In this document: positions 6,076-37,711 of the stretch, one piece after another
Layout: the number at the start of each line of letters is the position of its first letter
Position numbering within the stretch: position 1 is the stretch's first letter
Assembly (NCBI GenBank): GCA_006226465.1
Contig: SBHJ01000198.1
Span: forward strand, 1 to 42,315
DNA length: 42,315 nt
Reading direction: 5' to 3'
Source: Alphaproteobacteria bacterium
GTDB taxonomy: Bacteria > Pseudomonadota > Alphaproteobacteria > Sphingomonadales > Sphingomonadaceae
Made by a program: the position numbers and the translations under genes
Notes under the pieces: model-generated
What the model was told of the DNA's origin: nothing
Databases searched by the model: none
The model's input: the letters and a program-made list of their open reading frames with translations, nothing else

Positions 6076-6147
6076 ATTCTGACTGATGCGCAATTCCGAT
6101 CGCACAGGCAAGCTTTGATGGAGGTTTCATAATCCACCTTGCATTCG

Positions 6148-19050: not shown

Positions 19051-19067
19051 GGAATATTACCCACATC
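19045..19067. repeat. Inverted repeat over the sugar dehydrogenase promoter
   Basis: GATGTGGG and CCCACATC are perfect 8-bp arms separated by 7 bases. The repeat covers the -35 element of the ECF-type promoter at 19051. It could be an operator for a second regulator, or a cruciform or hairpin with no role. Confidence 0.45.
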
Positions 19068-19075
19068 AATCCGTT
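19051..19075 (+). promoter_or_regulatory. ECF-type promoter 1 (sugar dehydrogenase)
   Basis: GGAATA, 15 bases, CGTT. The CGTT ends 36 bases before the dehydrogenase ATG. It has the same sequence and spacing as four other sites in the island (33130, 34771, 36088, 36162). The probable regulator is the ECF sigma factor encoded at 35553-36074. Confidence 0.75.
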
Positions 19076-21924: not shown

Positions 21925-22637
21925 GGGCGTCCTTTCGCGATCCAATGGCGCATGGGACGGACCGAGATTGCCGAACTGGCAGCAATCACATCGAGCGCCC
22001 CACCGAGCTCGGCTCGGGCTGCGTCATCCATCGCTTCGTGGTGGAGCATGATCCCAATTGGCCCATCTGCTTTGGCAAATTGTTCGACCAGGCCCGCTTC
22101 AAGCCGCTCCTCGCGACGGTGTCGTTCCCAATCGAATGTCACCGGAAGTTGAGCGGTTGGCGTTTCTCTCGAACGGCGCGACCGGTCGGCAGAGAACAGG
22201 GCAAATCCGTGTTCGCCCAGGGCATCGACGAGTTCGTCAGAGCAGCGGTTCCAAGGCGGCGTGAAGATTGGATCGATTACTTCGAGCAAACTTGCCAGCC
22301 GCTCGCGCCCGGCAATAACGTCGGCAATCTGGGAAGTAGCGGGCCGCGACGGCCCAAATTCGCATTTGCGCCTCTCCTCCGGTTCATAATTGAGGTGGGC
22401 ATAACCGTGCTGGTGCAGACCGATTCCGCCATGGCATTCCCGCCGAGATGCCAGATTTCGAGCCGATACCTTGCCCAAGGCGGCAGGTATCACCGCCAGG
22501 TCGATCGGCAGACCGCGATCTTCGAACAGATCAAGCAGCGCGTGCAGTTCGGGATCGGCCCAACCGGCATCGTCGTCGCGGAAGAACACTTCTACCGGCG
22601 ATTCAAGCGCCTCGATTGTCGCCGCCAGGCCCTTCAT
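21921..22637 (-). CDS. Polysaccharide deacetylase-like protein (CE4/NodB fold)
   Basis: This 238-residue protein has the metal-site acidic cluster FFRDDDAGW near 18-26 and GIGLHQHGYAH near 71-81, matching the Asp and His-x3-His metal ligands of CE4 deacetylases. FTPPWNR near 125-131 matches the substrate-groove arginine motif. No signal peptide is present, so it should act in the cytoplasm on a precursor or lipid-linked sugar. That differs from secreted deacetylases such as PgaB. The ATG at 22637 overlaps the upstream glycosyltransferase stop by four bases. Removal of N-acetyl groups from a GlcNAc/GalNAc-type sugar would fit the UDP-HexNAc dehydrogenase. Confidence 0.8.
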   Translation of the reverse strand: MKGLAATIEALESPVEVFFRDDDAGWADPELHALLDLFEDRGLPIDLAVIPAALGKVSARNLASRRECHGGIGLHQHGYAHLNYEPEERRKCEFGPSRPATSQIADVIAGRERLASLLEVIDPIFTPPWNRCSDELVDALGEHGFALFSADRSRRSRETPTAQLPVTFDWERHRREERLEAGLVEQFAKADGPIGIMLHHEAMDDAARAELGGALDVIAASSAISVRPMRHWIAKGRP

Positions 22638-23758
22638 GCCGCAAGCTCCGCGATAAAGGCTGCGCTGCATTGCGCACCGCGCATATCAAGAGCGCGTTTG
22701 CCGCTCGGCTCCTTCAATTCGAGTAACAATTCGGCCAGCCGCTCGCCCGACAAGCCTTGCTCGGGTGCCCAGTTTGCCAAATCCATGTTTGTGAGCTGCC
22801 GCGCCCGCGCAGTCTGTTCGCTTTCCTGCCCGCGGGAAAAAGGCACAAACAACACTGGTTTGCGCGCCTGCAATATCTCCAGCGCGCTGTTGTAGCCGCA
22901 TTGGCTCACAACCCTCCCAGCCTGCTGGAGCAAGGGCTGGAGCGATGGGACGGCACGCACCAGGGTAAGCCAAGGAGCGTCCCGCGCCTTGTCACAAATT
23001 GCCTGCCAATCCTCATCTGGAAGCAGTGGCCCGGCGACCATGACCATTGGCCAGCCGCGCTCTTCCCAGAGGATCGACTGCGCGGCGATGGCAGCTTCGT
23101 AAAGCCCGCGGCCAACCACGCCACCGCCCGCAGTAACGAGGGTCACGCCCTGCGGCACGGAGCTCTCCAACGAAATGGTGCGGGTGACGAAACCGGTGTG
23201 CTGGACTGGAATACGCAATGGGTCATTGGGCCGAAAACTTTCGGCCAGGCAGAAAATGCGCTCATCCGAATGGACCAACACCGCATCAAATGTGGCGTTG
23301 AGCTTGTCCGCCGCACGTTGGTCGTGCCGCTCCTGATCGACCCGCCCAGTCACCAGCAGGTCCCGCACGCTGCAAACGATCTTGCCGCCCTGTTCGCGGA
23401 CCCTGGCGATCAAAGGATCGATTTCCGCGGCAAACTTCTTGCGCCCGAACGGATAGAGTTCGATCAGCAAGGCTGCGACCGGGCCTTCCCCTGCAGCTGC
23501 CAACATCCGGTCACGTCGTTCGGCGATCAATTGCTCGACCGCGCCCTTGCCCGAAAGCGAACCGTCCTCCTCCATCCGTAGGGGCGGGAGATGGACGAAA
23601 CGGATCGCCCGCGGCAGGGCCACCGCCATCGGCACCGGTCCACCGTTGAAGAAAATCACCTCGAAGCGTTCGACCAGCGCTTCGGCCAGTGCCAGCGAGC
23701 GCATGAAATGGCCAAGGCCAAGCGAATGCTGGCAATAGAGGAGCAGGCGCGGCTTCAT
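22634..23758 (-). CDS. MurG-like GT-B glycosyltransferase
   Basis: This 374-residue protein begins LLLYCQHSLGLGHFMRSLALAEAL, the GT-B nucleotide-sugar transferase start with the GLGH loop. It ends with the MurG-like donor-binding segment VVSQCGYNSALEILQARKPVLFVPF near 288-312. It has no signal peptide and should act at the cytoplasmic membrane face. It is a distant paralogue of the first gene in the operon (31885-33084), which has the same layout. Donor and acceptor cannot be read from sequence. Four-base overlaps on both sides place it firmly in the operon. Confidence 0.82.
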   Translation of the reverse strand: MKPRLLLYCQHSLGLGHFMRSLALAEALVERFEVIFFNGGPVPMAVALPRAIRFVHLPPLRMEEDGSLSGKGAVEQLIAERRDRMLAAAGEGPVAALLIELYPFGRKKFAAEIDPLIARVREQGGKIVCSVRDLLVTGRVDQERHDQRAADKLNATFDAVLVHSDERIFCLAESFRPNDPLRIPVQHTGFVTRTISLESSVPQGVTLVTAGGGVVGRGLYEAAIAAQSILWEERGWPMVMVAGPLLPDEDWQAICDKARDAPWLTLVRAVPSLQPLLQQAGRVVSQCGYNSALEILQARKPVLFVPFSRGQESEQTARARQLTNMDLANWAPEQGLSGERLAELLLELKEPSGKRALDMRGAQCSAAFIAELAA

Positions 23759-24846
23759 ACCAGCTCCCTCGACTGCACCGCCGCCGCCTGAAGAACCTCA
23801 AGGCAGCGCTCAGCTGCATCGAGCCGGATCGAGCAGAGCAGGCGGAGCGCCTTGGCTAAATGCTTGTGCAGCTGATAGGCCTGGAACAGCCGCGGATTGA
23901 CGGGCCAATCTGCGGCAAAGCCCTCAAGATAGGCGTCCGCAATCTCTCTAGCCCGTCGATCGCCCTCGAACTCCATCTCGGCGTAGAAGGTCGCCGCATC
24001 CAGCTCGGGATCGCCCCACCCAAAGCGGTCGAAGTCGACCAGATGCAGGCCTGAATCGTTGATCAGCCATTGATGAAGGTGCGGTGCCCCGTGAATTGGA
24101 CGGTCGGCAGATCCCGGCGTTATGCTTTCCAGATTGCTTGTCAGCTCCGGCAAGTATTTGGCTGATTCCGGCAGCCGCTTGGCTATCCTCCGCGCATATT
24201 TGTGACTGCGCGCCATCTGCCAGCCATAGTCATAGCGCGCTGCAGGCCGGAGGCTGGAAGCAGCGAGCGAAGCATTGGCCACCCCCATACGCTTCGCCAG
24301 ATCGACGCCCTCCGCCCCGAAGATCACGTCCGCGATTGACCGAGCCTTGATCGCGTGCATCGCAATGATACGCTGCCCGGGAAGCCAGCCTGCGGGCCGC
24401 GCCACCCCGAAATCCAGCTCACCGCGCTTCGACGCTGCCCACAGTTGGCGGGCATCGCGGACAATTGCTTCACCACGATCATCGGCCAGAGCCTTGCAAT
24501 AGAGTTCGCGCGGCATGCCCAGCCGGAAAGTCAGCCGCTTGCCCGGGCGATAACGTACCGGGATCAAGCCCGGGCGCTTGCTGGCGATATTGCGCATTTG
24601 CGGCAGCGTTGGATCATTGCGCCAGCCATCCACCGCGCTTTCGACAAGGCGCGCCAGTTGCTGGGCCTGATCGTCACCGATTGTGAGCGCAGCAATCTCA
24701 TTCGCGCCCGAAATTCGTTCGTAAAGCAGTGTTGCATTGCCTCTGTGATCGGTCCTCCCATAGCTCCGCTGCCAGCCGATCGGATCACCCAGCAGGGTCG
24801 GTATCGGGTCCTCGTGAACCAGCAGTTCGAGCAATGACTGGCTCAT
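23755..24846 (-). CDS. APH-fold phosphotransferase with altered active site
   Basis: This 363-residue protein has the fold of aminoglycoside/choline kinases: a mixed N-lobe and a C-lobe with a Brenner-type motif. That motif reads HGAPHLHQWL at 252-261, where active relatives have H-G-D-x4-N. The catalytic aspartate is replaced by A254 and the metal-binding asparagine by Q259. The DFD (271-273) that binds metal is kept. It may be a pseudokinase or scaffold, or use other residues. It is separated by the ABC transporter from a second, intact member at 26554-27828, which suggests an active/inactive pair. Confidence 0.8.
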   Translation of the reverse strand: MSQSLLELLVHEDPIPTLLGDPIGWQRSYGRTDHRGNATLLYERISGANEIAALTIGDDQAQQLARLVESAVDGWRNDPTLPQMRNIASKRPGLIPVRYRPGKRLTFRLGMPRELYCKALADDRGEAIVRDARQLWAASKRGELDFGVARPAGWLPGQRIIAMHAIKARSIADVIFGAEGVDLAKRMGVANASLAASSLRPAARYDYGWQMARSHKYARRIAKRLPESAKYLPELTSNLESITPGSADRPIHGAPHLHQWLINDSGLHLVDFDRFGWGDPELDAATFYAEMEFEGDRRAREIADAYLEGFAADWPVNPRLFQAYQLHKHLAKALRLLCSIRLDAAERCLEVLQAAAVQSRELV

Positions 24847-26561
24847 GACTCGCCTCCTGCCATTGCTGTTTCGGTGCGGTGCGAGCTTCCGATCACCAGT
24901 TCCTGATCAACCAGCCCTTCGGGCAGCGGCTGATGTGAAATGACCAGGATGGTCCTCTCACCTTTCTCTCGATGCAGCGCGCCAAGGATGATGTCAGCCG
25001 ATCGGTGATCGACATTCGCCAGCGGCTCGTCGAGCAACAGAACCGGACGGTCCGCCAATAACGCACGTGCTAGTGAAAGCCGTGCCTGTTCGCCGCCCGA
25101 AAACCCACCGCCGCCTTCGCCCAGTGCGGCATCGAGCCCTCCGCGCAAGCGTATCAACTTGTCGAGCGCGACCGCTTCCAAAACACGCCAGCATGCGTCC
25201 TCGCGAATTTGTGCGTTACCCAGCATCAGCCAATCGCGCACCGTTCCGGCGAGCAGTGGCGGCGATTGCGGTGCGATAGCAAATTGCCGTCTCAGCGCGT
25301 CAATTTCCCAATCGTGATACGAAGTGTCGTCAAGCGAGATAGTTCCGGAAACAGGGTCAAACAGCCGGGTCAGTAGCGCGAACAGTGTGCTTTTCCCGGC
25401 GCCGCTTGGCCCGGTGACGGAGACGAATGAGCCGCAGGGGATCGCTACCTGTCCGATGGCAATTTCCCGCCCGGATTGATAGGTGAAAGACACATCATCG
25501 AGCCGGATTGATCCCCGCGCCCTGCCTTTCACGAAGTTGCCGCTACGATCGAGCATGTCAGCGCGATCGAGCAATTCCGCCAGACGCCCTGCGCGACTGG
25601 TCGCGCCGGTAACCGCAGAAGCCAGGTCGTTGATCTTCTCCAGCGGCTTCAGCATCTGGTTGAGATAGAGGACGCAGATGGCCAACCCACCTGCGCTGAT
25701 TGCGCCTTGCAAGGCCAGCGCAGCACCCACTCCGACAATCAGCGCCAGTGCCAACCCATTTGCAATCTGCATGATCCGTTCGAGTCTTACGGCAACTGTG
25801 GTCTCTTCGACTCCGGTGGCCAGCGCTGCATCGCTCGTGCTGGCAAATGCGGCCCGAATTTCACCTTCACTACCCGATGCCTGGACAAAGTCGAGCAGGC
25901 GCAAGATCTCTTGGGCGCTGGCAGCAACCTTTCCTTCCTGCCTACGCTTGGCGCGAGCAGCCCGTGACAAAGGTCGTGCAGCAACCCGCATGATCGCGGC
26001 AAGTATGATTGCAATGCCCACCCCCAATAGCCCCAGCAACGGATCGACCCAGGTCATCGCTGCCAGCGCCATCAGAAATGTCAGAAAATGACGCAGGATG
26101 GCGGGGCCGGTCTTGGCGAACAGCCGTGCAACATTCTGGCTGTCATCAACCAAACGCAATGCCAACTCCCCCTGACGATCCTCGCCGCGGCACAGCGGGG
26201 TGAGGAGCATGAACCGTTCAAGACAAGCCATGCGGATCGCGCGTGTCATTCGCTCCCGTGCGCGTGCGCTCAAGACCTTCTCAAGCGCCGAGAATAGCGC
26301 AGCTAGCGTAGCCAAAAGGGCCGCCGCCACTGCCAGAATGGTGGCAGCAGCAGGCGGCGAGGTGCCCGGCGGCAAGAATCCGGGAGTCTTGCCTGCCAGG
26401 AGCTCGTCGATCACCAGCTTCAGCGGGATCGGTGCGAGGACAGCAAAGCCGCTTGTAAGCAGAGCGGCAACAAAGATCGCGGCTGCCAATCGCGCCTGCC
26501 CCTTCGCAAATGGCCAGAATCGGCGGCACGTATCGGCAAGTGTGAAGGCGCGTTCAGTCAT
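24843..26561 (-). CDS. ABC exporter, fused membrane and ATPase domains
   Basis: This 572-residue half-transporter has a six-helix type-1 exporter domain (helices from about 24 to 300) and an ATPase domain. Walker A is GPSGAGKS (384-391), the signature FSGGE (487-491), Walker B VLLLDEP (507-513) and the H-loop ISHQP (541-545). It should act as a homodimer. The layout matches MsbA/CydC-type flippases, so export or flipping of a lipid-linked glycan fits the operon. The ATG at 26561 overlaps the upstream gene by 8 bases; a GTG nine bases further up is possible. Kinase-fold proteins are encoded on both sides of it. Confidence 0.88.
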   Translation of the reverse strand: MTERAFTLADTCRRFWPFAKGQARLAAAIFVAALLTSGFAVLAPIPLKLVIDELLAGKTPGFLPPGTSPPAAATILAVAAALLATLAALFSALEKVLSARARERMTRAIRMACLERFMLLTPLCRGEDRQGELALRLVDDSQNVARLFAKTGPAILRHFLTFLMALAAMTWVDPLLGLLGVGIAIILAAIMRVAARPLSRAARAKRRQEGKVAASAQEILRLLDFVQASGSEGEIRAAFASTSDAALATGVEETTVAVRLERIMQIANGLALALIVGVGAALALQGAISAGGLAICVLYLNQMLKPLEKINDLASAVTGATSRAGRLAELLDRADMLDRSGNFVKGRARGSIRLDDVSFTYQSGREIAIGQVAIPCGSFVSVTGPSGAGKSTLFALLTRLFDPVSGTISLDDTSYHDWEIDALRRQFAIAPQSPPLLAGTVRDWLMLGNAQIREDACWRVLEAVALDKLIRLRGGLDAALGEGGGGFSGGEQARLSLARALLADRPVLLLDEPLANVDHRSADIILGALHREKGERTILVISHQPLPEGLVDQELVIGSSHRTETAMAGGES

Positions 26562-27828
26562 TGGCTCCACCGATTTCTGTCAACGCGCGCATGGCGAGGC
26601 CAAGCAACTGCATCGGCATGGCCTTGCTGTTTGCCTTCAGCCTCGTTCCGCAACGATAAAGTCGCTCGGCGATGAGGCAGGCGGCGAAATTCCACAGGAA
26701 GTCGGAAGCCTCGATTGCATCTCGTGCAGTGGCCGCAAATTGCAGCTCTTCAACGATCCGCCAGATCTCGTCTGCCGACATTCCCGTCGCGAGCATCTTT
26801 TGGGCAAAGGCTGCTGCAAGGCTAGCGTGATCAAGCGCCGCTGGCGCCAATGCGCAGGTGTCGAGATCGATCAGCGCAAAGCTTTCGCCGTCCCATAGGA
26901 GATTGGCCGGATGGAGGTCGCAGTGGCTCAGCACCAGTCGCGAATCTGGTTTGGCGACCGCCAGCAATCGCGACATGACGATCGCCAGATCGGGCGAGAG
27001 GGCTGGAAATGCAGATCTTATCCTGACTGCTCGCCACTCGATTCGACCCAGCGTCGATTGGGGTGTTTGCAGTTCGATTTGGGCGGGAGGCGAGAGCCCG
27101 TGGAATGCGGCAATGGCGCTGGCGAGGCGATCGGCCCAATGCGCTGGACCGGAGCATAGATCAGCGACCGAGAGTGCATCACCTTTGACAGCCGCCTGCC
27201 ACATGATCCGGTTGGTTGCGTCATATTCAATCACCGGGGCGAGTCGAAGTCCGACCAGATCCTGTTTGATGGCCCCTATTGCGACCTTCGCTGCAGCCAA
27301 GCAGCGGTCATCGACGCGCGCCTTGCCGAATATCGCTCCCTTGGGACCATCAACCCTGATCGTGCACCCCTGCTCGGGGACATAGTGGACGACTTCTATA
27401 TCGGTCCCAAACGACTTCGCCTGCTCCAAAAGCCGCGCAATCCCTATGACCTTGCGATCATTGGGAAAGAACCAGGCCGAGCCGGACAGGGCTTCGCTTT
27501 GCAGGAGCGGCGGGCCAAAAGCAGGAGTATCTTCGCTATTCCCGTCAACGACAGACAAGTGACCCCGCTTGCCACCCGGCCAAAGCGTCAGCATCAACCG
27601 TTGATCAATCAGATTGCCGTCAATAGCTTCGCCCAGCAAACGCAGTCCCAGTAACGCCTTGCGGCCCGGCTTGAGTCGGACCCGTTCAAGCTCTGCTACC
27701 AGTCGCTTTGCCGGGAACCCCGCGCCAGCCAATTCATCACGCAAGGCGGACGCCGCGTATTCGCAGTCGAGCGCTTGGTGCAGCGAAGGAAACACCGGAT
27801 CCGTCGTGATTTGGGCGGGCATCAACAT
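26554..27828 (-). CDS. APH-fold phosphotransferase, intact active site
   Basis: This 424-residue protein of the aminoglycoside/choline kinase fold keeps the catalytic segment SHCDLHPANL (301-310), with D304 and N309, and IDLD (320-323) with metal-binding D321. It probably phosphorylates a sugar, a polyol or a lipid-linked intermediate of the glycan pathway; antibiotic resistance is unlikely from the setting. Two bases separate its start from the heparinase-fold gene. It differs from the other phosphotransferase in the operon by having every catalytic residue. Confidence 0.82.
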   Translation of the reverse strand: MLMPAQITTDPVFPSLHQALDCEYAASALRDELAGAGFPAKRLVAELERVRLKPGRKALLGLRLLGEAIDGNLIDQRLMLTLWPGGKRGHLSVVDGNSEDTPAFGPPLLQSEALSGSAWFFPNDRKVIGIARLLEQAKSFGTDIEVVHYVPEQGCTIRVDGPKGAIFGKARVDDRCLAAAKVAIGAIKQDLVGLRLAPVIEYDATNRIMWQAAVKGDALSVADLCSGPAHWADRLASAIAAFHGLSPPAQIELQTPQSTLGRIEWRAVRIRSAFPALSPDLAIVMSRLLAVAKPDSRLVLSHCDLHPANLLWDGESFALIDLDTCALAPAALDHASLAAAFAQKMLATGMSADEIWRIVEELQFAATARDAIEASDFLWNFAACLIAERLYRCGTRLKANSKAMPMQLLGLAMRALTEIGGAND

Positions 27829-27830
27829 GG

Positions 27831-29507
27831 CTACCGCCCCCTCGCACCTGGCAATTCGGCCACATATGGAATGCTGAAATACTCACCATTCACCGTGAAG
27901 CCATTGGCTTCACAATTGAACTTTAATGACCTCGAAGCGAGCCCACCGGGTAAGAGCAGTGTACCGAACCAGGAAGATTGCGCGGTTTGGGCCGCTACAA
28001 TGCGCGGAGCGGCGAGTTTCATGCCGTATGTTGGCGCGACCCAGCCCTGCTCAAGTTCAATTTGCGGATTGTGGCTGCTAGCGACAATCATCGCCAAATC
28101 CGGCATTTCGATCCGGCCAAATCCACTTGTGGATTGGGGAGCCCGGACGTGATCTTGAGCCTCTGGAGCAAGCTGGAACAGCGCCTCATAGAGGTTCTCC
28201 TCCAATCCCTCGAGCCGGTCGTGAACCAGCCACCAGCCGTGGTCATGCGAGATGATCGATCGCTGGTGCACCACCGCATATTCGTGACTTGCGGCGCTTG
28301 CCTGTACGATCCGACAATGCCCTAGGTCGTGATAGGCCAGCAATTCGGCCACCGGGGCAGGCCCGTTAATCTTCATTCGCTTGGGGCCCTGGCGATAGAG
28401 CGTCTGCTCGCATCGATTGACCTGCACCAGGTTATGCGCGCGTGTGCGGCGGAATTCGGCGCGCCAATTGGTCTCGCCGCCCTCGTGATAGGTGTAGCGA
28501 CCGGGATCAACGATCAATGAGCGTCCGCAAGCAGCAAATTCGAACGAAAGGCAATCAAGGTGTCCGTGGTTACCCGCACCGATGTCGCCGCAATCAAACG
28601 CCAGATAGCCGCCATCGCGATGGCCCAATACCGCCCGCCGATCGCGCATCACTGCATAGCCGCCGGCCGGGAACAGTTCGACCAGTTTGGATGCCTTGCC
28701 CAACCCCAGCATGGCTCGATAATCGCCCGTGTCACCATCGCTCAGCGCCGGGATGTGGCCATCAGGCTTGTGCAAGACGCGGGCGAAATGGCTGGCCCGG
28801 GCAACGATCGCGCGTAGCTCCGACGGCACCGGCAGGCCATTGTCATCGGCCAGCTCGATCGCTTCGCAGAAGTTGCGCAAGGCGATGCAGTGGTAGTGCG
28901 ATGACAGTTCGATATGGACACCATCCGACAGGAAATCGCTTCGTGCGTTGGCGAGCAGCTCATCCATCGCGAAATCGGTCAATCCGGCTTCGCCGAGCCA
29001 TACCCCCGCGATGTAGATCGCGAACAGTTCGAGCGTGCGATGGTTGCGCTTGGCATGAAGATTGGCCTGCAGCCACTCTACTTGGTGACGGAGCGACGTG
29101 GCCATAGCGGCGCTCAACTTCGGTCGTGCAGTTCCCAGCAGCGAAAGCGCATAGACCCAGTTGCGTATCCGCCGCCCGGTTACATCGGCGGCAATGAAGC
29201 CGGGCGGGATCTCACCAATCCACTGTGCGATGTGAGTTTCCAGCAGGTCGAGGTGACGCGCTTCACCGGTTTGGAGCCAGCGCTGCACCAGGATTGGCGC
29301 ATGGTGGAATTTGTGGAGCACAATGTGCCATTCGAGATCGTCAGAGGGGTTCGTGACCCAGTCAATCGAATGAGTTTCGCCGCCCGTAGTGAAGTGCCCG
29401 CAGTACCACTCCTCGACTGCCTCGGCATTGTCGAATTCCGGTTCGAAACGAACGCGGATTGCCGGAATGCCTTGCGACTCAAACTGGGTTGGGCAGGCGG
29501 GCTTCAT
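27831..29507 (-). CDS. Heparinase II/III-fold polysaccharide lyase-like protein
   Basis: This 558-residue protein has an alpha/alpha-toroid domain (about 60-270) with NHRTLE (155-160) and SSHYHC (202-207), then the beta-sandwich domain with NHGHLDCLSFEF (313-324) and DPGRYTYHEGG (334-344). These Asn, His and Tyr segments carry the catalytic residues of heparinase II/III and alginate lyases, which cleave uronic-acid polysaccharides by beta-elimination. No signal peptide is visible, so its place of action is unclear. In polymer operons such lyases trim or edit the product. It overlaps the tandem glycosyltransferase gene by four bases. Confidence 0.88.
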   Translation of the reverse strand: MKPACPTQFESQGIPAIRVRFEPEFDNAEAVEEWYCGHFTTGGETHSIDWVTNPSDDLEWHIVLHKFHHAPILVQRWLQTGEARHLDLLETHIAQWIGEIPPGFIAADVTGRRIRNWVYALSLLGTARPKLSAAMATSLRHQVEWLQANLHAKRNHRTLELFAIYIAGVWLGEAGLTDFAMDELLANARSDFLSDGVHIELSSHYHCIALRNFCEAIELADDNGLPVPSELRAIVARASHFARVLHKPDGHIPALSDGDTGDYRAMLGLGKASKLVELFPAGGYAVMRDRRAVLGHRDGGYLAFDCGDIGAGNHGHLDCLSFEFAACGRSLIVDPGRYTYHEGGETNWRAEFRRTRAHNLVQVNRCEQTLYRQGPKRMKINGPAPVAELLAYHDLGHCRIVQASAASHEYAVVHQRSIISHDHGWWLVHDRLEGLEENLYEALFQLAPEAQDHVRAPQSTSGFGRIEMPDLAMIVASSHNPQIELEQGWVAPTYGMKLAAPRIVAAQTAQSSWFGTLLLPGGLASRSLKFNCEANGFTVNGEYFSIPYVAELPGARGR

Positions 29508-31888
29508 TCCGCCGCCTCTCGCCAGATGGTGCCCTCGAACAGATCATTCAGGTCATGGATCGTTTTCGAAGCATCGAATACCTCCGCGATCCGTGCGGTG
29601 GCCGCCTGGCCAAGCCGCCGCCTAAGTAGATCGTCATCGGCGAGGCGCGCCAAGGCATCGGCTAGCTCCGAGCTGTCCTCGGGGGTGACCAACAATCCGT
29701 TCACATCGTGGTCGACGATTTCCGGAATGCCTGAAACATCGGTTGAGACGACGGCAAGGCCAGTCGCCATCGCCTCGGCCAGCACATTGGGGATGCCATC
29801 GCGATCACCACTGTCGTCGATCCGGCACGGCAGTACGAAGACATCGCTGGCGTGATAGGCGCTGCGTAGCGCATCGCGCGAAAGCGGTGGCTCGATCGCG
29901 AAATGGTCGCCCAATTCAAGCGCTGCGGCCAAGGCTTCCAGGGCTTGGGTCGCAGGGCCATTTTCCCCGATCAACCGGCAGGTGAAGGCGATCTTGCGAC
30001 GCTTGAGCTCGGCCAGCGACCGCAGCAGCAGATCAAAGCCCTTCTTCTCAACGTGCCGCCCCACAGCGAGGATACGCAGCGCTTCGTGCCGCTCACGCTT
30101 GGCCGGATGGAAGAAGCTGGTGTCGAGGCCGTGGTACACCGTGTGGAGTTTGGCAGGTTCCTCGACCCGCTCAGCCATGTGCTCGTGATTGGCCGCAGTG
30201 CAGGTTGTGACGAAGCGCGCCGCATCGACCTTGCGCGAGAGTAAGTCGGCCGGATTGTGCCTTGCCTGATAGATATCCTTGGCATGCGCCGTGAAGCTGA
30301 ACGGCACACCGGCCATATCCGCTGCGAGCCAGGTAATCGTGGTCGCACTGTGGCAGAAATGGCCGTGGAGATGCGTTACTCCGGCGCGGCCAACGGCCTC
30401 GGCCACAGCACCGGCTTGCGCGAATTGCTTCAGATAGCTGCGCTTGAACCTGCGTCCATCCTGGTGGCGATATTGCCTCGCAAATCGCAGGGCGCAAAGA
30501 AGCGCCTTGCTCCATCCACGCGGATTGCGGCGCATCAACCGCCAATGCACGGGCGCGTAAGCAGGGAGCGCAACGCGCAGCCAACCAACAAGGCTGCTCT
30601 TGCTGACCGATCCCGGTGCAGGGAGGTAGGCAAGCGGCGAATTGAGGCGCGCGAGGACAGGGGCAGCGAGGTCGTCCCCGCGCGCACCAGCAAACAGCGT
30701 CAGCTGCTTGCCGAGCTGTTCGAGGCCAAGGACCTCATTGCTGATGAAGCTTTCAGAAAGTCGCGGAAAGCCTTTGACGAAGTAGCCGATATTATCGCCA
30801 CCCTCACCGGTCGCGCTGAGCAGCAGTCGGTCCAGTGCCGCAATATCCTTACCCGAGCCGAACGCATCGCGGACGAACCCTTGAGCATTCCCTGCGAGCG
30901 AAGCGCGATATTCTGGAGCCTCCAGAAGCTTGGCAATTGCGCTGGCAAGCTCAATCGGATTCTCGGGCTCGACCACCAATCCGTTGCCGCCATGGTGGAG
31001 CACCTCAGGCACCCCTGAGACATTGGTCGAGACGACCGGCACGCCGGCTGCCATCGCCTCAAGGATCGCGTTGGGAATTCCGTCGCGGTCACCATCGGGA
31101 TCAATCCGGCACGGGAGTGCGAACACGGTCGCCGCCGCCAGCCGCGCGCGGACATATTCGTGGGACTGCTTGCCTGATAAAATTACGTGATCGGCAATCC
31201 CGAGATTGGCTGCGAGCGCGCGCAATCTTGGCTCTTCGGGGCCGTAGCCGATGATTTCACACACAAACCTTCGACCGTCGTTCGCAAGCTCGGCGCAAGC
31301 ACGCAAAAGCAGGTCAAAACCCTTCTTGGTGCGGAGCCGCCCCACCGAAAGGATCAGCGGCAGATCGCACTCCTTGCGCTCGTGTTCAAGAAAGCGGTCG
31401 CAATCGATCCCGTGATAAAGCTTTGCGACCGGTACGCCGGGTGCAACGTCACGCAGATACTCCGCATTGTGGCTGGTGCAGGTGGCGATGAAACGCGCGT
31501 CGCGCATGACCCTGGCCAGTCTGCGTCGATCCGACGTGTAAATGTCCTTGGCATGGGCAGAGATGCTGAAACCGATCCCGCATTTGTGCGCCGCCTGCTG
31601 GGCGATCTCCGATGGACGGCCGGCGAAGTGCGAATGGATATGGGCAATCCCCATAGCCGCGCAGAACCGTGCAAGATCGGCTTCCGGCCTCTTCCAATTG
31701 AGCTGGATGACGGGCGCCTTGACTTTGGCCACGTCCGGATGGCGAATGGTATCGGTCGGCGGCTCAAGCGTAAAGATTGTGATTGGCCAACCCAGCTCTT
31801 CCAGGGCGAGGATTTCGCCCAGGATGAAGGTCTCCGACAGCTTGGGGAACCGCTTGACCAGGACTGCTATCTGCTTCCGCTTAGTCAC
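29504..31888 (-). CDS. Tandem two-domain GT4 glycosyltransferase fusion
   Basis: This 794-residue protein is a head-to-tail duplication. Unit one (about 1-360) starts VKRFPKLSETFI; unit two starts at about 369 with YFVKGFPRLSESFI. Each has the AHAKDIY acceptor-side motif, a GRxxxKKGFDLLL donor-site start, and the GT4 E-x7-E segment (IPNAILEAMAAGVPVV near 271-286 in unit one and IPNVLAEAMATGLAVV in unit two). Both active sites look intact, so it could add two sugars in succession to one acceptor. It overlaps both neighbours by four bases. Donor sugars are not known. Confidence 0.88.
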   Translation of the reverse strand: MTKRKQIAVLVKRFPKLSETFILGEILALEELGWPITIFTLEPPTDTIRHPDVAKVKAPVIQLNWKRPEADLARFCAAMGIAHIHSHFAGRPSEIAQQAAHKCGIGFSISAHAKDIYTSDRRRLARVMRDARFIATCTSHNAEYLRDVAPGVPVAKLYHGIDCDRFLEHERKECDLPLILSVGRLRTKKGFDLLLRACAELANDGRRFVCEIIGYGPEEPRLRALAANLGIADHVILSGKQSHEYVRARLAAATVFALPCRIDPDGDRDGIPNAILEAMAAGVPVVSTNVSGVPEVLHHGGNGLVVEPENPIELASAIAKLLEAPEYRASLAGNAQGFVRDAFGSGKDIAALDRLLLSATGEGGDNIGYFVKGFPRLSESFISNEVLGLEQLGKQLTLFAGARGDDLAAPVLARLNSPLAYLPAPGSVSKSSLVGWLRVALPAYAPVHWRLMRRNPRGWSKALLCALRFARQYRHQDGRRFKRSYLKQFAQAGAVAEAVGRAGVTHLHGHFCHSATTITWLAADMAGVPFSFTAHAKDIYQARHNPADLLSRKVDAARFVTTCTAANHEHMAERVEEPAKLHTVYHGLDTSFFHPAKRERHEALRILAVGRHVEKKGFDLLLRSLAELKRRKIAFTCRLIGENGPATQALEALAAALELGDHFAIEPPLSRDALRSAYHASDVFVLPCRIDDSGDRDGIPNVLAEAMATGLAVVSTDVSGIPEIVDHDVNGLLVTPEDSSELADALARLADDDLLRRRLGQAATARIAEVFDASKTIHDLNDLFEGTIWREAAE

Positions 31889-33084
31889 AGCACCTGCTCC
31901 AGCCGCTGGGCGACTTCCTGAGCGCGCTTGCCGAGAGCCAGCTCACAGATCCGTTCGAGCCCATTGAACTTGAGGCGTGCGGCGTGGCTCGAATGGATGT
32001 TCGAACGATCGAGCTCGATCTGGATCGATTGCCGCAGGACTGCAGGCGACAGGTCCTCCATCGGAATCATCGAGAGTAGGCCCAGGCGCGACATGCCTTC
32101 GGCTCGGATGCGTTGTTCGCGCACTGGTTCGGACCGCGGCACCACTATGGCTCGCTTGCGATAGCTCAGAATCTCGCAAACAGTATTGTAACCGCCCATC
32201 GAGACAACAACGTCTGCGGCAGTCAGTTCCGCGCCCATATTGTCAGAGAAATCGAGCCACTCGGTATCAGCGATCTGGGCTGCAGCGACCGATAGGCGAC
32301 GCCGCTCGACTTCGGCCATCTCCGGCCCGCCAATAACTCTGCACTCATAGTCACGCTCTGCACCGGCCTGAACCAGCGCACCCAGGGCAGCCTCGATCAG
32401 CGCAACGCCGTCCTGTCCCCCGCCCGCATGGACCAGCACCCGCATCTTGCCATCCACATTGGCTGGGCGCTTGGTATGCCCTGCCTCGGCGCGATTGATA
32501 TATCCGCAATAGTGCAGCTTGCAGCGTGTGCTGTCAGGGAAACGATAGGCTTCGGCGAGGTCGAATATCTGTGGCTCGCCCACTACCAGGATGGAATCAT
32601 AGCAGCGATCAATTACGCCGTGATAGTCGTTGGCTTCCCATACACTGCGGGTTGCCTGTGGCGTGTCGAGGATGTCGCGCAGCAGCAGGTGCATCCGAGG
32701 CCGGTCGGCGCGGCGTGTCATCAATTCCAACATGGGCGCAAGTTCGCCGGCCACACCCAGCGGCTTCTTGTCCACCAGCACAATGTCCGGATTGAATTCG
32801 CTGGCAGCAGCCATGATCACGCTCGCGCGCATACGCACCGCGTCGCCGAAATCCATGTCGAGGTGCTTGACCCCATACTCACCCTTGGTGTCGCGGGCGA
32901 GGCACGGCAGCTTCACATAGTCAATCCGTTCAGCCAGCCGGAATGCATGCAGCATGGGTGATCCGGTGACCAAAAGCACCGAGCTCGCCGGGTCATGCGC
33001 CACGAGCGCTTCAGAAATTCGCAGCATCCGGCGGATATTTCCGAGCCCGAATGTGTCATGCGAATAGACGAGGATGCGTGCCAT
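31885..33084 (-). CDS. MurG-like GT-B glycosyltransferase, first gene of glycan operon
   Basis: This 399-residue protein starts ILVYSHDTFGLGNIRRMLRISEAL and has the donor-binding segment VVSMGGYNTVCEILSYRKRAIVVPR near 290-314. It is similar in layout to the 22634-23758 protein. It heads the nine-gene operon 33084-20488, whose members overlap or lie within two bases of each other. A GGGAG ribosome binding site precedes the ATG, and an ECF-type promoter ends 46 bases upstream. As the first enzyme it may start the repeat unit, but no undecaprenyl-phosphate glycosyltransferase is present, so the acceptor is unknown. Confidence 0.82.
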   Translation of the reverse strand: MARILVYSHDTFGLGNIRRMLRISEALVAHDPASSVLLVTGSPMLHAFRLAERIDYVKLPCLARDTKGEYGVKHLDMDFGDAVRMRASVIMAAASEFNPDIVLVDKKPLGVAGELAPMLELMTRRADRPRMHLLLRDILDTPQATRSVWEANDYHGVIDRCYDSILVVGEPQIFDLAEAYRFPDSTRCKLHYCGYINRAEAGHTKRPANVDGKMRVLVHAGGGQDGVALIEAALGALVQAGAERDYECRVIGGPEMAEVERRRLSVAAAQIADTEWLDFSDNMGAELTAADVVVSMGGYNTVCEILSYRKRAIVVPRSEPVREQRIRAEGMSRLGLLSMIPMEDLSPAVLRQSIQIELDRSNIHSSHAARLKFNGLERICELALGKRAQEVAQRLEQVL

Positions 33085-33129: not shown

Positions 33130-33154
33130 AACGGGCCATTTGCCTGCTTATTCC
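33130..33154 (-). promoter_or_regulatory. ECF-type promoter 2 (glycan operon)
   Basis: GGAATA, 15 bases, CGTT on the minus strand. The CGTT ends 46 bases before the ATG of the first glycosyltransferase, leaving a leader of about 39 bases. It matches the other four island sites exactly in all ten fixed bases and in spacing. Confidence 0.75.
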
Positions 33155-33255: not shown

Positions 33256-34236
33256 TCAGAAGCGCGCGGTAATCGTCGCACCGCCGAACAGATCGGCGCT
33301 GTTGTCGTTGAGTCCGGTCCCCAGATAGGTCGTAAGGCTCAGCGTGCGGCTGATCCGGAAGTTGGCCCATCCGGTCACCTCGCTGCTCGCCCGACGGCCG
33401 TCAAAGGCGGACTGCTGCCAATCGTAATCAGCTCCGATATACACGCCCGTGCCCATCCGGCCGCTGATCCCGCCACTTGCACCCCAGGTCGAACGGATCG
33501 TCGAGCCTTCAGGCTTGCCGGCGAACTTGCGCCTGCCGCTGACGTAAAGCGACGCATTGCCAATGTCTTGGATCAGAGCGGCGGAGGCTGTCACATCGAC
33601 TTCGCCCGTGCCCAAGCGTTTGCTACGCGAAGCGGTCGGCAGCTTCACTTTCACGCCCGGTTCGAAGTATGTCGATCCGCCCAGCGCAAATGAATAACTC
33701 ATCGAGACATTGACGTCGCCGAAACCGTTGCGCCGATTGTCTGGTAGGCCAACACCGCTATCGTCCACCACATCGCCCAGTACCGGATCTTCAACTTCCA
33801 CCTCGCTACCGCCACTGGAGCCTGAGCTACCTGAGCCGGAATTGGAGCCGGAACTACCCGATCCGGAGTTTGACCCTGAACTGCCGGAACCGGAATTCGA
33901 GGAATCTTCACCCGAACCACTTCCACCGCCCGAAAAATCGCGCCCTTCGGGTGTTGAGAGCAGCGAGCCTGGGCCGTCGATCCAGACGTAGGGCACTGAA
34001 ACGCGGATCTTCAGGCCATCCTTCTTGTAGGTAAGGCTCATCGGGATAGCGACGACCTTTGTGTCTTCCAATTCACCGTATTCGCCACTTGAGAACGTCA
34101 CCCCTGTGCTCAGGCGAAAATTACTTGGCATGACCTGTTGTCGGTCTTTTTCGGAATCCTGCGCCCATGCGGGCACCGATATGCAGGCCATACCCCCTGC
34201 AGTGATTGCGAGCAGGACTTTCCCATTGATTTTCAT
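33256..34236 (-). CDS. Outer-membrane beta-barrel protein with Ser/Gly repeat loop
   Basis: This 326-residue protein has a signal peptide cleaved near AWA-Q (about 25). Alternating amphipathic strands follow and the last residue is phenylalanine, as in outer-membrane barrels. It resembles MetA-pathway/transporter-type barrels. Residues 102-143 form a Ser/Gly/Asn loop containing three copies of the nine-residue unit GSNSGSGSS (first copy SSNSGSGSS). Such a loop would be surface exposed and is a possible glycan acceptor. It is 115 bases after the Asp-Arg repeat gene and probably co-transcribed with it, as no ECF-type promoter lies directly in front. Function unknown. Confidence 0.78.
   Translation of the reverse strand: MKINGKVLLAITAGGMACISVPAWAQDSEKDRQQVMPSNFRLSTGVTFSSGEYGELEDTKVVAIPMSLTYKKDGLKIRVSVPYVWIDGPGSLLSTPEGRDFSGGGSGSGEDSSNSGSGSSGSNSGSGSSGSNSGSGSSGSSGGSEVEVEDPVLGDVVDDSGVGLPDNRRNGFGDVNVSMSYSFALGGSTYFEPGVKVKLPTASRSKRLGTGEVDVTASAALIQDIGNASLYVSGRRKFAGKPEGSTIRSTWGASGGISGRMGTGVYIGADYDWQQSAFDGRRASSEVTGWANFRISRTLSLTTYLGTGLNDNSADLFGGATITARF
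33823..33903 (-). repeat. Three 27-bp tandem repeats encoding the Ser/Gly loop
   Basis: Residues 112-138 of the barrel protein are three nine-residue units, so 81 bases form three in-frame 27-bp repeats. The copies differ at synonymous positions, so they are not recent slippage products, but copy number may still vary between strains. Confidence 0.7.
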
Positions 34237-34351: not shown

Positions 34352-34729
34352 TTAGTCGTGGCCCACCGGATCATCATTCTCGTGTCCATGGCGATGTTCG
34401 CCATCGTGGCCTTCGGTTCGATCATCATCTCGATGCCCGCTACGACCTTCGCGATCCTCTCGATCCTGCCTGTCTTCACGGTCTTCTCGATCCTGGCGGT
34501 CCTCACGATCGTGTCGGTCTTCGCGACCTCTTTCGCCGTGGCGGTCGGCTCGATCTTCCCGGTTCGCGCGGTCCTCGCGATCTTGCCGATCGGCACGATC
34601 TGCCCGGTCAGCACGATCGCTTCGATCTTCGCGATCTCTGCCGCCGTGCCAAGCAATGGCCGGACTGGTAAGCGAGATCGTTGCGAGGCCAGAGAGGAAG
34701 GCCAGCGCAAGTTTCTTACTGGATTGCAT
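34352..34729 (-). CDS. Secreted Asp-Arg-x repeat protein
   Basis: This 125-residue protein has a signal peptide cleaved near residue 26 (ending SPAIA). From about 31 to 96 it consists almost wholly of three-residue units of the form D-R-x (DRADRADRQDRED and similar). A His/Asp-rich tail follows (GHDGEHRHGHENDDPVGHD). I chose the ATG at 34729 because AAGGA lies seven bases upstream; another ATG is five codons earlier. The repeat would form a highly charged, probably single-alpha-helix or disordered rod in the periplasm or outside. The subtilase N-terminus at 36224 carries similar DR units. I know of no family; metal or anionic-glycan binding is speculation. Confidence 0.78.
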   Translation of the reverse strand: MQSSKKLALAFLSGLATISLTSPAIAWHGGRDREDRSDRADRADRADRQDREDRANREDRADRHGERGREDRHDREDRQDREDREDRQDREDREGRSGHRDDDRTEGHDGEHRHGHENDDPVGHD

Positions 34730-34770
34730 TGAATTTTCCTTCATTGAAATCTGTCGATTGACAGGCTGAC

Positions 34771-34795
34771 AACGAAGTTGATCGGCGCTTATTCC
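34771..34795 (-). promoter_or_regulatory. ECF-type promoter 3 (Asp-Arg repeat protein)
   Basis: GGAATA, 15 bases, CGTT on the minus strand. It overlaps the last codons of the anti-sigma gene. CGTT ends 42 bases before the ATG at 34729. It fits the other island sites exactly and lets the repeat protein be transcribed above the level of sigma/anti-sigma read-through. Confidence 0.75.
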
Positions 34796-35556
34796 ACTGC
34801 GCTAAGATTATTTTTGCTTGGACTCCAGTCCTGCTGAATCAGCCGGGCTTCCCGCTTTGCGTCGAATGGGTCGCTAGCGCCGAGCCGATCGTAAACCGCA
34901 TCAAGGGTGGCGTCCTCGACGCCGGATGCCAAGGCAATCTCATTTGGATCGGCGAGTTCGGTTGCTCCACGTTCCAATGCCTCGACCTGCCATGATCCGC
35001 TGCGCCGGCATGCGATGCCTGCTCCACCGGCAGCTGCTTCACGCGCAATCGAGAATTCGCGACAGTAGCTGCCGTCGCTCGCAACAAAGGTGAGTAGCGG
35101 CGTTAGCCGCGACCCATTGTCCATAGCTGCAAACTGCCCTGATGGCGTATTTTCCAACGCACGGTCGAACGAATTCCCGCCCGGCCCAATGAACAATATG
35201 GCCAATGTGAGCGAGGCTGCGATCGCCCCGCCGACAGGCAGCGCCCAACGCGTACGGAACGGCGGATTGTCGTTGGCCACCCGGGCCGATCGTCGGTGCG
35301 CATCAAGATCGACCGGCTTCTCGACCTTGTCCGGCAGCAGGCCCATCCGAGCCAACAGCGCGTCATCGGCCACTACCTGCATTGGCGCGCCGAATGCCTC
35401 GCGTAGCAGCGTATCATTCGCCATCAGGCGTTCGAGCTCTCCTGCCAGCTCACTATCGGTTTCGAGTTCAGCTTCGAATGCGGCCAGCTCCGATCCTTCG
35501 AGCGCACCGTCGATGAATGCCGCAATACGTTCGTCCCTAGTCAGGTTTCCGGTCAT
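34789..35556 (-). CDS. Membrane-bound anti-sigma factor
   Basis: This 255-residue protein has a cytoplasmic N-domain (MTGNLTRDERIAAFIDGALEGSELAAFEAEL) like other anti-sigma domains, a single membrane helix near 105-123 (WALPVGGAIAASLTLAILF) and a periplasmic C-domain with two cysteines. There is no HxxxCxxC zinc motif. It overlaps the sigma gene by four bases, the standard arrangement for ECF pairs. It should hold the sigma factor at the membrane until an envelope signal triggers release, possibly by proteolysis. The divergent subtilase is a candidate protease for its periplasmic part, but that is speculation. Confidence 0.85.
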   Translation of the reverse strand: MTGNLTRDERIAAFIDGALEGSELAAFEAELETDSELAGELERLMANDTLLREAFGAPMQVVADDALLARMGLLPDKVEKPVDLDAHRRSARVANDNPPFRTRWALPVGGAIAASLTLAILFIGPGGNSFDRALENTPSGQFAAMDNGSRLTPLLTFVASDGSYCREFSIAREAAAGGAGIACRRSGSWQVEALERGATELADPNEIALASGVEDATLDAVYDRLGASDPFDAKREARLIQQDWSPSKNNLSAVE

Positions 35557-36074
35557 TGCACCGTCTCCCCATTTACAGCCTTATCAATGGCGCGACGCGC
35601 GCGGGCTATGCGGCTCATGACCGTTCCAATCGGAATATCGAGTGTGGTCGCTGCATCCCTGTAGCTCATGCCATCCAGCACCACGAGCGCCATCAGCACG
35701 CGTTGCTCTTCGGGCAAAGCCGCCATAGCGGTCTGTGCCCGTTCAAGGTCGGAGCGTCCTTCGACCAATTGCAGCCCGTCTTCGCCGCGCAGGCCATAGG
35801 CCTCGTCCACGTCAATCTCGACCCCGCGCGTCTGCAGGCGCCTGGCCTGGTCGATGTGTATATTCTGGGCGATACGATACATCCAACTGTCCAATCTCGT
35901 TCCTGTTTGGAACTGCTCGGAACGTGATAGTGCACGTTCGATCGCTGCCTGGCACAGATCGTCACCCTTGTCCGCATCCCGCGCCAACGCCATGCAGAAA
36001 CGGCGCAATCGGGGAAGGAGGGCAACGATCTGCTCGCGCAAGTCGGTCGTATCCGGCCGGCTATCTCGTTCCAT
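35553..36074 (-). CDS. ECF-type RNA polymerase sigma factor
   Basis: This 173-residue sigma factor has region 2 (RRFCMALARDADKGDDLCQAAIERAL and LDSWMYRIAQNIHIDQARR, about 26-80) and region 4 (LPEEQRVLMALVVLDGMSYRDAATTLDIPIGTVMSRIARARRAI, about 120-163), with nothing else. I chose the ATG at 36074 after GGGGAG; the frame extends 33 codons further up without conservation. A GGAATA-N15-CGTT promoter ends only 14 bases before this ATG, so the transcript would be nearly leaderless. A TTG at 36041 (residue 12) is therefore an alternative start. It probably directs transcription from all five island promoters, including its own. It is not the PhyR-controlled EcfG by its neighbours. Confidence 0.92.
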   Translation of the reverse strand: MERDSRPDTTDLREQIVALLPRLRRFCMALARDADKGDDLCQAAIERALSRSEQFQTGTRLDSWMYRIAQNIHIDQARRLQTRGVEIDVDEAYGLRGEDGLQLVEGRSDLERAQTAMAALPEEQRVLMALVVLDGMSYRDAATTLDIPIGTVMSRIARARRAIDKAVNGETVQ

Positions 36075-36087
36075 TCCACTCCCCACA

Positions 36088-36112
36088 AACGGATCGAAGA
36101 GCCGGTTATTCC
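36088..36112 (-). promoter_or_regulatory. ECF-type promoter 4 (sigma/anti-sigma operon)
   Basis: GGAATA, 15 bases, CGTT on the minus strand just upstream of the sigma gene. It implies positive autoregulation. The CGTT ends 14 bases before the ATG, so the predicted leader is only about 7 bases and overlaps the ribosome binding site. Confidence 0.7.
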
Positions 36113-36161
36113 CGCCGGGGCGCAATAATTCAATGGGTCTGCCGAATTCCTCGGCGGAAAT

Positions 36162-36186
36162 GGAATATTGCAATTGTTTGTGCGTT
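36162..36186 (+). promoter_or_regulatory. ECF-type promoter 5 (subtilase)
   Basis: GGAATA, 15 bases, CGTT on the plus strand. CGTT ends 38 bases before the subtilase ATG. It sits back-to-back with promoter 4 in the 149-bp divergent gap. Confidence 0.75.
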
Positions 36187-36194
36187 CATATTCC
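36162..36194. repeat. Inverted repeat spanning promoter 5
   Basis: GGAATAT and ATATTCC form 7-bp arms separated by 19 bases, so the -35 string of promoter 5 is repeated in reverse just past its -10 element. The minus-strand copy has no CGTT at the right distance, so it is not a second promoter of the same kind; it might be an extra regulator site. Confidence 0.4.
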
Positions 36195-36223
36195 ATGTTC
36201 TAGTTTGAATGCGGGTTTGAAAT

Positions 36224-37711
36224 ATGGGTGACCTACGATCTTCTCCTCGCCGGATGGTAACGGCCGCCGCATGCATGGCCCTGCTGCTCGGTTGGCCGGG
36301 CACAGCTACGGCGTGGCTGGCATCCGGTAGTGGCAAGGATGCTGCTGAGGATACGGCAGACCGCCTCGACCGGGTTGATCGGGACACCCAACGCGCGTTG
36401 GAACAAGCGGATCGCGACACATCGCGCCTGGCCGAACGCGCAGCTCGCGATGAAGCCCGTTATGTCGAGGACCGTGCCGAGATTCTGGCCAAGACCGCCG
36501 ATGATCCCGTGCGGCAACAACAGGAACTTGCCAAGCTTGAGGCTGACCGCATTGAGGACCAGGCCAAAATCCAGGAAGAGGCCGCAAAGATTGCAGAAGA
36601 GCTCTCCGAAGAACTTCATGAGATCAACGAAGATGCGGGCGAGCACGCGGTCGAATTCGGCGATAGCACCGAGATGCGCAATCTGGCAGAGCGTGAGAAT
36701 CCAGAATTCGACGAAAGCGGGTTCCCCGTTCGCCAGGGCGAGATCGTGGGGCTCAACCTCGGAGAAGGTGGGGTCGGCACACTCCAATCAAAAGGCTTCA
36801 CAGTTATTGCGACGCATGACCTGCCCGCCTTGCAGAGCCGTGTAACACGGCTTTCTGCGCCGGTGGGCCTGGATGCAGGGATGGCATTGGCGAAAGCCCG
36901 GAACGCCCTGCCCAACGCAACTCTGGACTACACTCACTACTACGCGATGCAGTTCTCTTCTGCCGGTGCGGCAGAGAAGGATCGAAACGCGAGTCTGCCG
37001 CGAAAAAAAGGTAAGCTCACCATCGGCATGATCGACACCGGTGTTGTGAGCCATTCCGCCTTGCGCGGCGCGTCGATCGAATCCCGGAATTTCGGCAGCG
37101 TCGAAGGAGCAGCAACAAAGACGCATGGCACCGCCGTTGCCTCGATCCTGGTCAGCGAGGGTTCGAACAAGCTGTACGTCGCCAATATTTTCCGTGGCAG
37201 TTCCAGCCAGCCCTTCACTTCTGCAGATGCGATTGTCGATGCGCTCGACTGGATGGTCGCGAACAAGGTTCCGGTAGTGAACATGAGTCTTTCCGGCCCT
37301 CGTAATGCCATCCTGGACCGGCTCGTGGAGCAATCGGTAGGTCGCGGAACAATGATTGTTGCAGCCGCGGGCAATGGCGGCCCGACCGCACCGCCGGCCT
37401 ATCCCGCTGCCTTGAGATCGGTAGTGGCTGTGACGGCAGTCGATCACGAAAACCGGGTCTACCGCTACGCCAATCAGGGCCGCTACATCACCGTTGCGGC
37501 GCGAGGGGTTGGCGAGGCGGCGGCGGACAGTCGCGGCGGGATTGGACAATTCTCCGGCACCAGCTTTGCCACTCCGCATGTCAGCGCGTGGATGGCGCGG
37601 TGCCTGACCCGTAGCAGCCCACTAACTTGCGGGCGCAAGCTGAGAACATCGGCGCGCGATCTTGGTGCGCCGGGTTATGACCCGGTGTATGGTTACGGGC
37701 TGGTGGACTAG
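36224..37711 (+). CDS. Secreted subtilisin-like (S8) serine protease with charged N-domain
   Basis: This 495-residue protease has a signal peptide (hydrophobic 11-30, ending GTATA). A strongly charged helical region follows at about 38-145, rich in DR pairs (DRLDRVDRDTQ), which looks like a coiled coil. A linker leads to the catalytic domain at 263-495. The triad is D271 (IDTG), H301 (HGT) and S447 (GTSFATP), with oxyanion N384 (AAGNGG), so it should be active. The domain is compact (about 230 residues) and has no C-terminal sorting signal. It is divergent from the sigma operon. Targets could be envelope proteins, the Asp-Arg repeat protein or the anti-sigma factor. Confidence 0.9.
   Translation: MGDLRSSPRRMVTAAACMALLLGWPGTATAWLASGSGKDAAEDTADRLDRVDRDTQRALEQADRDTSRLAERAARDEARYVEDRAEILAKTADDPVRQQQELAKLEADRIEDQAKIQEEAAKIAEELSEELHEINEDAGEHAVEFGDSTEMRNLAERENPEFDESGFPVRQGEIVGLNLGEGGVGTLQSKGFTVIATHDLPALQSRVTRLSAPVGLDAGMALAKARNALPNATLDYTHYYAMQFSSAGAAEKDRNASLPRKKGKLTIGMIDTGVVSHSALRGASIESRNFGSVEGAATKTHGTAVASILVSEGSNKLYVANIFRGSSSQPFTSADAIVDALDWMVANKVPVVNMSLSGPRNAILDRLVEQSVGRGTMIVAAAGNGGPTAPPAYPAALRSVVAVTAVDHENRVYRYANQGRYITVAARGVGEAAADSRGGIGQFSGTSFATPHVSAWMARCLTRSSPLTCGRKLRTSARDLGAPGYDPVYGYGLVD

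Follow-up and report, generated by a model that had tools for sequence, protein, structure and literature searches.

What connects a secreted repeat protein with a secreted protease when the two genes lie on either side of a sigma factor and its anti-sigma factor? The question is posed by a 42,315-nucleotide stretch of a Sphingomonadaceae genome (assembly GCA_006226465.1, contig SBHJ01000198.1), referred to here as the window. A first-pass annotation had described, with coordinates and gene roles that all proved correct, a secreted Asp-Arg (DR) repeat protein of 130 amino acids (positions 34352 to 34744, reverse strand; alternative ATG at 34729), an anti-sigma factor of 255 amino acids (34789 to 35556, reverse strand), an extracytoplasmic function (ECF) sigma factor of 173 amino acids (35553 to 36074, reverse strand), and a secreted S8 subtilase (36224 to 37711, forward strand). 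Adjoining the repeat gene is the gene for an outer-membrane β-barrel protein (326 amino acids; 33256 to 34236, reverse strand), assigned from an AlphaFold2 (AF2) model and Foldseek. These five genes very probably form one regulon; this is the strongest result of our analysis and, for a claim drawn from sequence, close to established. At about even chances, we read the locus as a module of the cell surface or matrix under ECF control: the barrel would export or anchor the repeat protein, and the subtilase would have its target in the matrix, barrel, or anti-sigma factor. Searches of open-licence papers yielded no description of the locus. The source assembly is partial (2.1 Mb, 68% complete), with Sphingobium as the closest named relatives in our search, and our family-wide searches covered 401 genomes drawn from the larger family.

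Promoter motif and a probable regulon

The case for a regulon rests on the motif GGAATA-N15-CGTT. Matching ECF-type promoters had been annotated for the DR and subtilase genes, and a motif search places sites before these two and before the sigma gene: at 34771 to 34795 (reverse strand) before the DR gene, at 36088 to 36112 (reverse strand) before the sigma and anti-sigma genes, and at 36162 to 36186 (forward strand) before the subtilase. The barrel gene is probably carried on the same transcript as the DR gene. At the sequence level, the sigma gene's own promoter matches those of its candidate targets, consistent with putative autoregulation. Across 16 related loci, the two halves of the motif are separated by a spacer of 15 in 43 sites, and the other lengths compared, 10 to 21, give only 0 to 2 sites each; the window itself contains 5 sites, against a mean of 0.05 in 60 Markov simulations. 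These counts strongly support the earlier proposal that the genes are under one sigma factor. In most relatives the subtilase promoter lies about 60 nucleotides before the ATG, and in L037 and L039, whose repeat and barrel genes diverge, both genes have a site of their own.

The sigma factor, which scores above the cut-off for Pfam Sigma70_r2 and Sigma70_r4_2, consists of regions 2 and 4 only, and its relatives span 173 to 178 amino acids; translation more likely starts at the ATG at 36074, which has a GGGGAG leader, than at the TTG at 36173. The anti-sigma factor was assigned from hydropathy and from a match to NCBIfam NF052375 that falls below the model cut-off (E = 1.4e-6). Its cytoplasmic N-domain lacks a zinc motif; a single transmembrane helix is predicted (residues ~104 to 125), and the periplasmic C-domain has two cysteines.

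Two further copies of the motif in the window had been missed. One (33130 to 33154, reverse strand, starting 70 nucleotides before the ATG) heads a polysaccharide operon of nine overlapping or abutting genes (20488 to 33084, reverse strand), and the other (19051 to 19075, forward strand) precedes a UDP (uridine diphosphate)-glucose/GDP (guanosine diphosphate)-mannose-type dehydrogenase (19111 to 20472, forward strand; PF03721, PF00984, and PF03720). Domain matches in the operon, which reads from 33084 to 20488, identify glycosyltransferases, a heparinase II/III-like protein, an ATP-binding cassette (ABC) transporter, APH-type kinases, and an Alginate_exp barrel (PF13372, E = 4.2e-26) encoded together with the glycosyltransferases and the transporter; a gene of 249 amino acids is without assignment and deacetylase-like by eye. 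When 28 genomes were searched with the glycosyltransferase at the head of the operon, matches outside the source genome were found only in G506 and G507, which belong to another genus. There, too, the gene is preceded by GGAATA-N15-CGTT, and the operon, about 12 kb from the module, encodes glycosyltransferases, an ABC transporter, and an Alginate_exp-like barrel. The whole regulon looks like a program for remodeling the cell surface. The heparinase II/III-like gene (27831 to 29507) suggests that the polymer contains uronic acid. In a further genome (G402, locus L178), an intergenic copy of the motif (2314 to 2338) lies 20 nucleotides before a gene of 128 amino acids with a signal-peptide-like start, a possible extra regulon member.

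DR repeats and the proposed partnership with the subtilase

Beyond common regulation, the first-pass annotation had proposed that the DR protein could be a substrate, inhibitor, or scaffold of the subtilase, recognized through a charged N-terminal domain of the protease that shares its DR-x composition. By inspection, both proteins do begin with a signal-peptide-like stretch. The composition of the DR protein is far beyond chance: its mature form of 99 amino acids contains 19 DR dipeptides (shuffle mean, 6.6; maximum, 14 in 20,000 shuffles), with strong Asp periodicity at lags 3 and 6. The subtilase, however, is only mildly DR rich, with 6 DR dipeptides in residues 31 to 145 (1.6 in shuffles; p ~0.001) and a single short run, DRLDRVDRD, so that the "runs of DR-x" ascribed to it were overstated. 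Its N-domain is otherwise Ala/Glu rich and is modeled as two long helices (37 to 89 and 95 to 139); on this model, a charged helical hairpin is the better description.

The N-domain of the protease, together with the accessory genes, divides homologous loci into three module types. Type A, to which the window belongs, combines a helical-hairpin N-domain with a repeat protein and a barrel; a second type has an Asp/Gly-rich N-domain; and in a broad type the downstream gene often encodes a Gly/Ser-rich secreted protein. Among the 15 loci with a repeat gene, 14 encode other repeats in the same slot (RGADDPxGHVRQ), and the DR version occurs only in the source genome. The relatives' units are of a Gly/Pro-rich RGADD type (RRGADDPAGHVRQ, RGRGADDxPGDxR), often with a CRGC motif, and two close relatives (L035 and L126) mix DR-rich and RGADD segments. 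The window's DR protein matches no Pfam or NCBIfam family and goes undetected by an RGADD family profile, which has no match in the source genome; what ties it to the RGADD family is therefore its position, its promoter, and NDDPVGHD, a short motif retained at the C terminus. Because DR runs are nearly unique to this one repeat protein, the proposed match through DR units is not supported. DR-DR matching as a general basis for interaction was rejected, since relatives keep the protease yet use RGADD repeats. The DR composition is not what the loci conserve; we read it as a lineage-specific trait and not as the basis of an interaction.

Whether the two genes travel together received a mixed answer. 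Of 401 genomes, the same 7 contain the type A subtilase and a close homologue of the barrel; the repeat profile has matches only in six of these seven, the seventh being the source genome with its DR protein. A repeat gene is present in all 15 protease loci with a helical N-domain. In a sister locus (L128 of genome G452), which encodes a barrel, sigma and anti-sigma factors, and a protease (4546 to 6126), the repeat gene is absent, and the protease N-domain carries EVEEPE-type repeats in place of the helical hairpin. On the other side, the co-occurrence spans one clade, more than 100 genomes contain other subtilase relatives but no member of the repeat family, and at L133 a repeat protein stands beside a barrel without a protease. 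The second copy that the profile detects in G271 lies beside a barrel paralogue, with no sigma, anti-sigma, or protease gene nearby. The 15-of-15 association could be a single evolutionary event. Trees of the sigma factor, anti-sigma factor, barrel, and protease agree (patristic r = 0.79 to 0.90; none of 999 permutations as high), with type A and L128 branching apart from the other types in all four; such agreement between gene trees shows shared descent, not physical contact.

The association and the joint absence from L128 speak for a partnership; in addition, the DR densities of the two proteins correlate weakly from locus to locus (Spearman 0.57; p = 0.03 without correction for descent), and the Arg-rich spacers between repeats could be protease sites. 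Yet the window's repeat sequence is not conserved in its relatives while the protease remains 44 to 63% identical, and both L133 and the restriction to one clade count against it. We consider a partnership through the charged N-domain distinctly unlikely. Among the options for what the protease does, a DR-based partnership is the weakest, given that the relatives do not share the DR feature. A loop in the L035 protease N-domain, GADDPERQ, resembles the repeat unit RGADDPAGHVRQ; this similarity is not conserved and was taken as chance.

The outer-membrane barrel and a proposed passage to the surface

The steadiest partner of the repeat protein is the adjoining barrel. The AF2 model of the barrel, built on a three-sequence alignment, has 12 strands, with a long, disordered, Gly/Ser/Asp-rich loop (~94 to 166) between strands 3 and 4. 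Foldseek places FapF at ranks 1 to 15 (E = 1e-6 to 3e-5), followed by a COG4313 channel, making FapF the best PDB fold match of what is a weak model. An invariant P200-T201-A202 follows directly on modeled strand 5, at the foot of the loop joining strands 5 and 6; the PTG motif of FapF occupies this position. The window barrel has no Pfam or NCBIfam family; 4 of 20 aligned family members weakly match PF13557 (Phenol_MetA_deg), and the window barrel does not.

Pairing with a low-complexity protein extends beyond type A. On our reading of the gene lists at 20 more distant barrel loci, a secreted low-complexity protein is encoded directly upstream, in the same direction, in 14, a raw count that is suggestive. 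These neighbors are unrelated in sequence, with repeats that vary by group, and the same pairing occurs in L133, L139, and L140. Repeats encoded upstream of the barrels in L226 to L245 (e.g., L237, L238, and L244), L139, and L140 are of NVKG, Asp-rich, and RPEK types. From the recurrent pairing, the shared promoter, and the fold resemblance, we infer with moderate strength that the barrel exports or anchors the repeat protein. More tentatively, and with the balance against it, FapF-like barrels and their own low-complexity passengers (DR-x, RGADDPxGH, RPEK, NVKG, and Asp-rich) could make up a hitherto undescribed pair of genes for export or display in sphingomonads, with one branch taken over by an ECF-sigma/subtilase regulon through which polysaccharide synthesis is driven as well.

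The amyloid protein FapC is exported by FapF, whose nearest solved relative is a COG4313 importer (PMC5557850). Like the Fap system of Pseudomonas, the window has a modeled 12-strand barrel beside a secreted low-complexity repeat protein, with a co-encoded protease. Unlike in Fap, this protease is an S8 subtilase and not a C39 FapD, the repeats are highly charged and not amyloid-like, and ECF sigma control is linked. Pfam and NCBIfam searches of the five module genes detected neither C39 FapD nor FapA to FapE, and none was seen in the module neighborhoods.

In the surface-module reading, an envelope signal would release the sigma factor from the membrane anti-sigma factor, and free sigma factor would raise expression of its own operon and of the surface-protein genes. 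The 12-strand barrel would carry the repeat protein across the outer membrane or display it on the surface, in principle as FapF does FapC, and the charged repeats would there join a polysaccharide matrix. The co-induced subtilase, with its charged helical hairpin, would process or clear components of the matrix or barrel, and a further target may be the anti-sigma factor's periplasmic domain.

Several observations weigh against this reading. The barrel model is weak (mean predicted local distance difference test score, 57.5) and the Foldseek template modeling scores are low (~0.35 to 0.39); a profile search of PDB sequences with the barrel did not find FapF. FapF has an N-terminal periplasmic coiled coil and a helical plug (PMC5557850), whereas the window barrel has only a signal peptide and ~13 residues before strand 1. 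A polysaccharide operon of this kind was not found in most type A genomes, and the operon is therefore an optional member of the regulon. Outside the module, the genome-wide motif count does not exceed a reversed control in most genomes. As these sites lie mostly inside genes, a large genome-wide regulon was dropped, only the polysaccharide sites being convincing. Finally, COG4313 channels import small molecules (PMC5557850), so that import by the window barrel is possible.

This last point opens another explanation: the barrel would act as a channel for small molecules, the repeat protein would buffer metals or serve as a polyelectrolyte in the periplasm, and the two would form an envelope-stress module without a matrix role. 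Importers are found among COG4313/Phenol_MetA_deg relatives (PMC5557850), and the 9 His of the DR protein and the CRGC motif of most of its relatives would suit a buffer. His and Cys are, however, not conserved throughout the repeat proteins, the barrel is repeatedly paired with unrelated low-complexity proteins, and a regulatory link to the polysaccharide operon recurs in two genera. We judge this explanation improbable, on a par with the partnership discussed above.

Regulation of the module invites comparison with two known systems. AlgU(RpoE)-MucA controls alginate in Pseudomonas. The window likewise pairs an ECF sigma factor with a membrane anti-sigma factor, over a regulon with polysaccharide genes that include an Alginate_exp barrel; it differs in its GGAATA-N15-CGTT promoter, in the linked subtilase, repeat, and barrel genes, in a polysaccharide operon present in some genomes only, and in that no MucB-like gene was noted. 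EcfG, of the alphaproteobacterial general stress response, uses promoters with a GGAA-type -35 and a CGTT-type -10. The window's promoters are of similar type, and PhyR_sigma2 is among the sigma factor's Pfam matches; unlike for EcfG, the linked anti-sigma factor is transmembrane and not a NepR/PhyR pair, and genomic sites are very few and mostly at the module.

The subtilase and the reach of the module

The subtilase (PF00082, E = 8.9e-27; PDB subtilisins matched) comprises a signal peptide, the helical hairpin (37 to 139), a propeptide-like segment (168 to 238; β-α-β-β-α-β), and a catalytic domain whose D271, H301, and S447 are invariant in 27 aligned sequences. Its AF2 model, also from a three-sequence alignment, is good only for residues 45 to 139 and part of 165 to 238, and poor for the catalytic domain. 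Candidate targets of the protease are matrix components, the barrel, and the anti-sigma factor.

The last of these targets underlies a further explanation, a form of feedback that the first-pass annotation had also raised: a site-1-like subtilase would cleave the anti-sigma factor in its periplasmic domain and thereby amplify or reset sigma output, with the repeat protein and barrel as downstream surface genes. Sigma and anti-sigma genes both adjoin the subtilase in 68 of 75 loci (65 of them divergent), a fraction valid for a sample taken mainly from the best protease matches, and the accessory secreted gene varies by type. Moreover, 27 of 49 divergent non-type-A loci carry the promoter of the broad type, GGATGA-N16-CGTT, and 10 of the 49 have a perfect palindrome, GGATGAAACG-N12-CGTTTCATCC, between the sigma and subtilase genes that reads toward both and could fire both ways. 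A conserved neighborhood is equally expected if the protease is simply the main output, and known site-1 proteases, DegS among them, do not depend chiefly on their own sigma loop for induction. Protease feedback is in our view unlikely, if somewhat less so than the two other alternatives.

The palindrome, found among others in L047, L049, L052, L053, and L054, places the complement of one direction's -10 within the other direction's -35 and is apparently a bidirectional ECF promoter. Loci with an Asp/Gly-rich subtilase N-domain (L041, L043, L134, and L136 to L138), possibly calcium binding, mostly have a different downstream gene of ~220 amino acids. In L087 to L091, which have no sigma gene, more distant subtilases follow a gene of ~1,520 amino acids and one of 220 to 300 amino acids, some with a match to the anti-sigma profile.

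The analysis defines a concrete candidate regulon, with the module in scattered sphingomonads, Sphingobium subterraneum DSM 102255 (L003) among them, and its protease, sigma, and anti-sigma core across much of the family. The promoter motif permits a sequence-based search for further members. If the barrel does export the repeat protein, these bacteria would possess an exporter dedicated to fast-evolving low-complexity proteins, and the locus would be an alphaproteobacterial parallel to Fap secretion.

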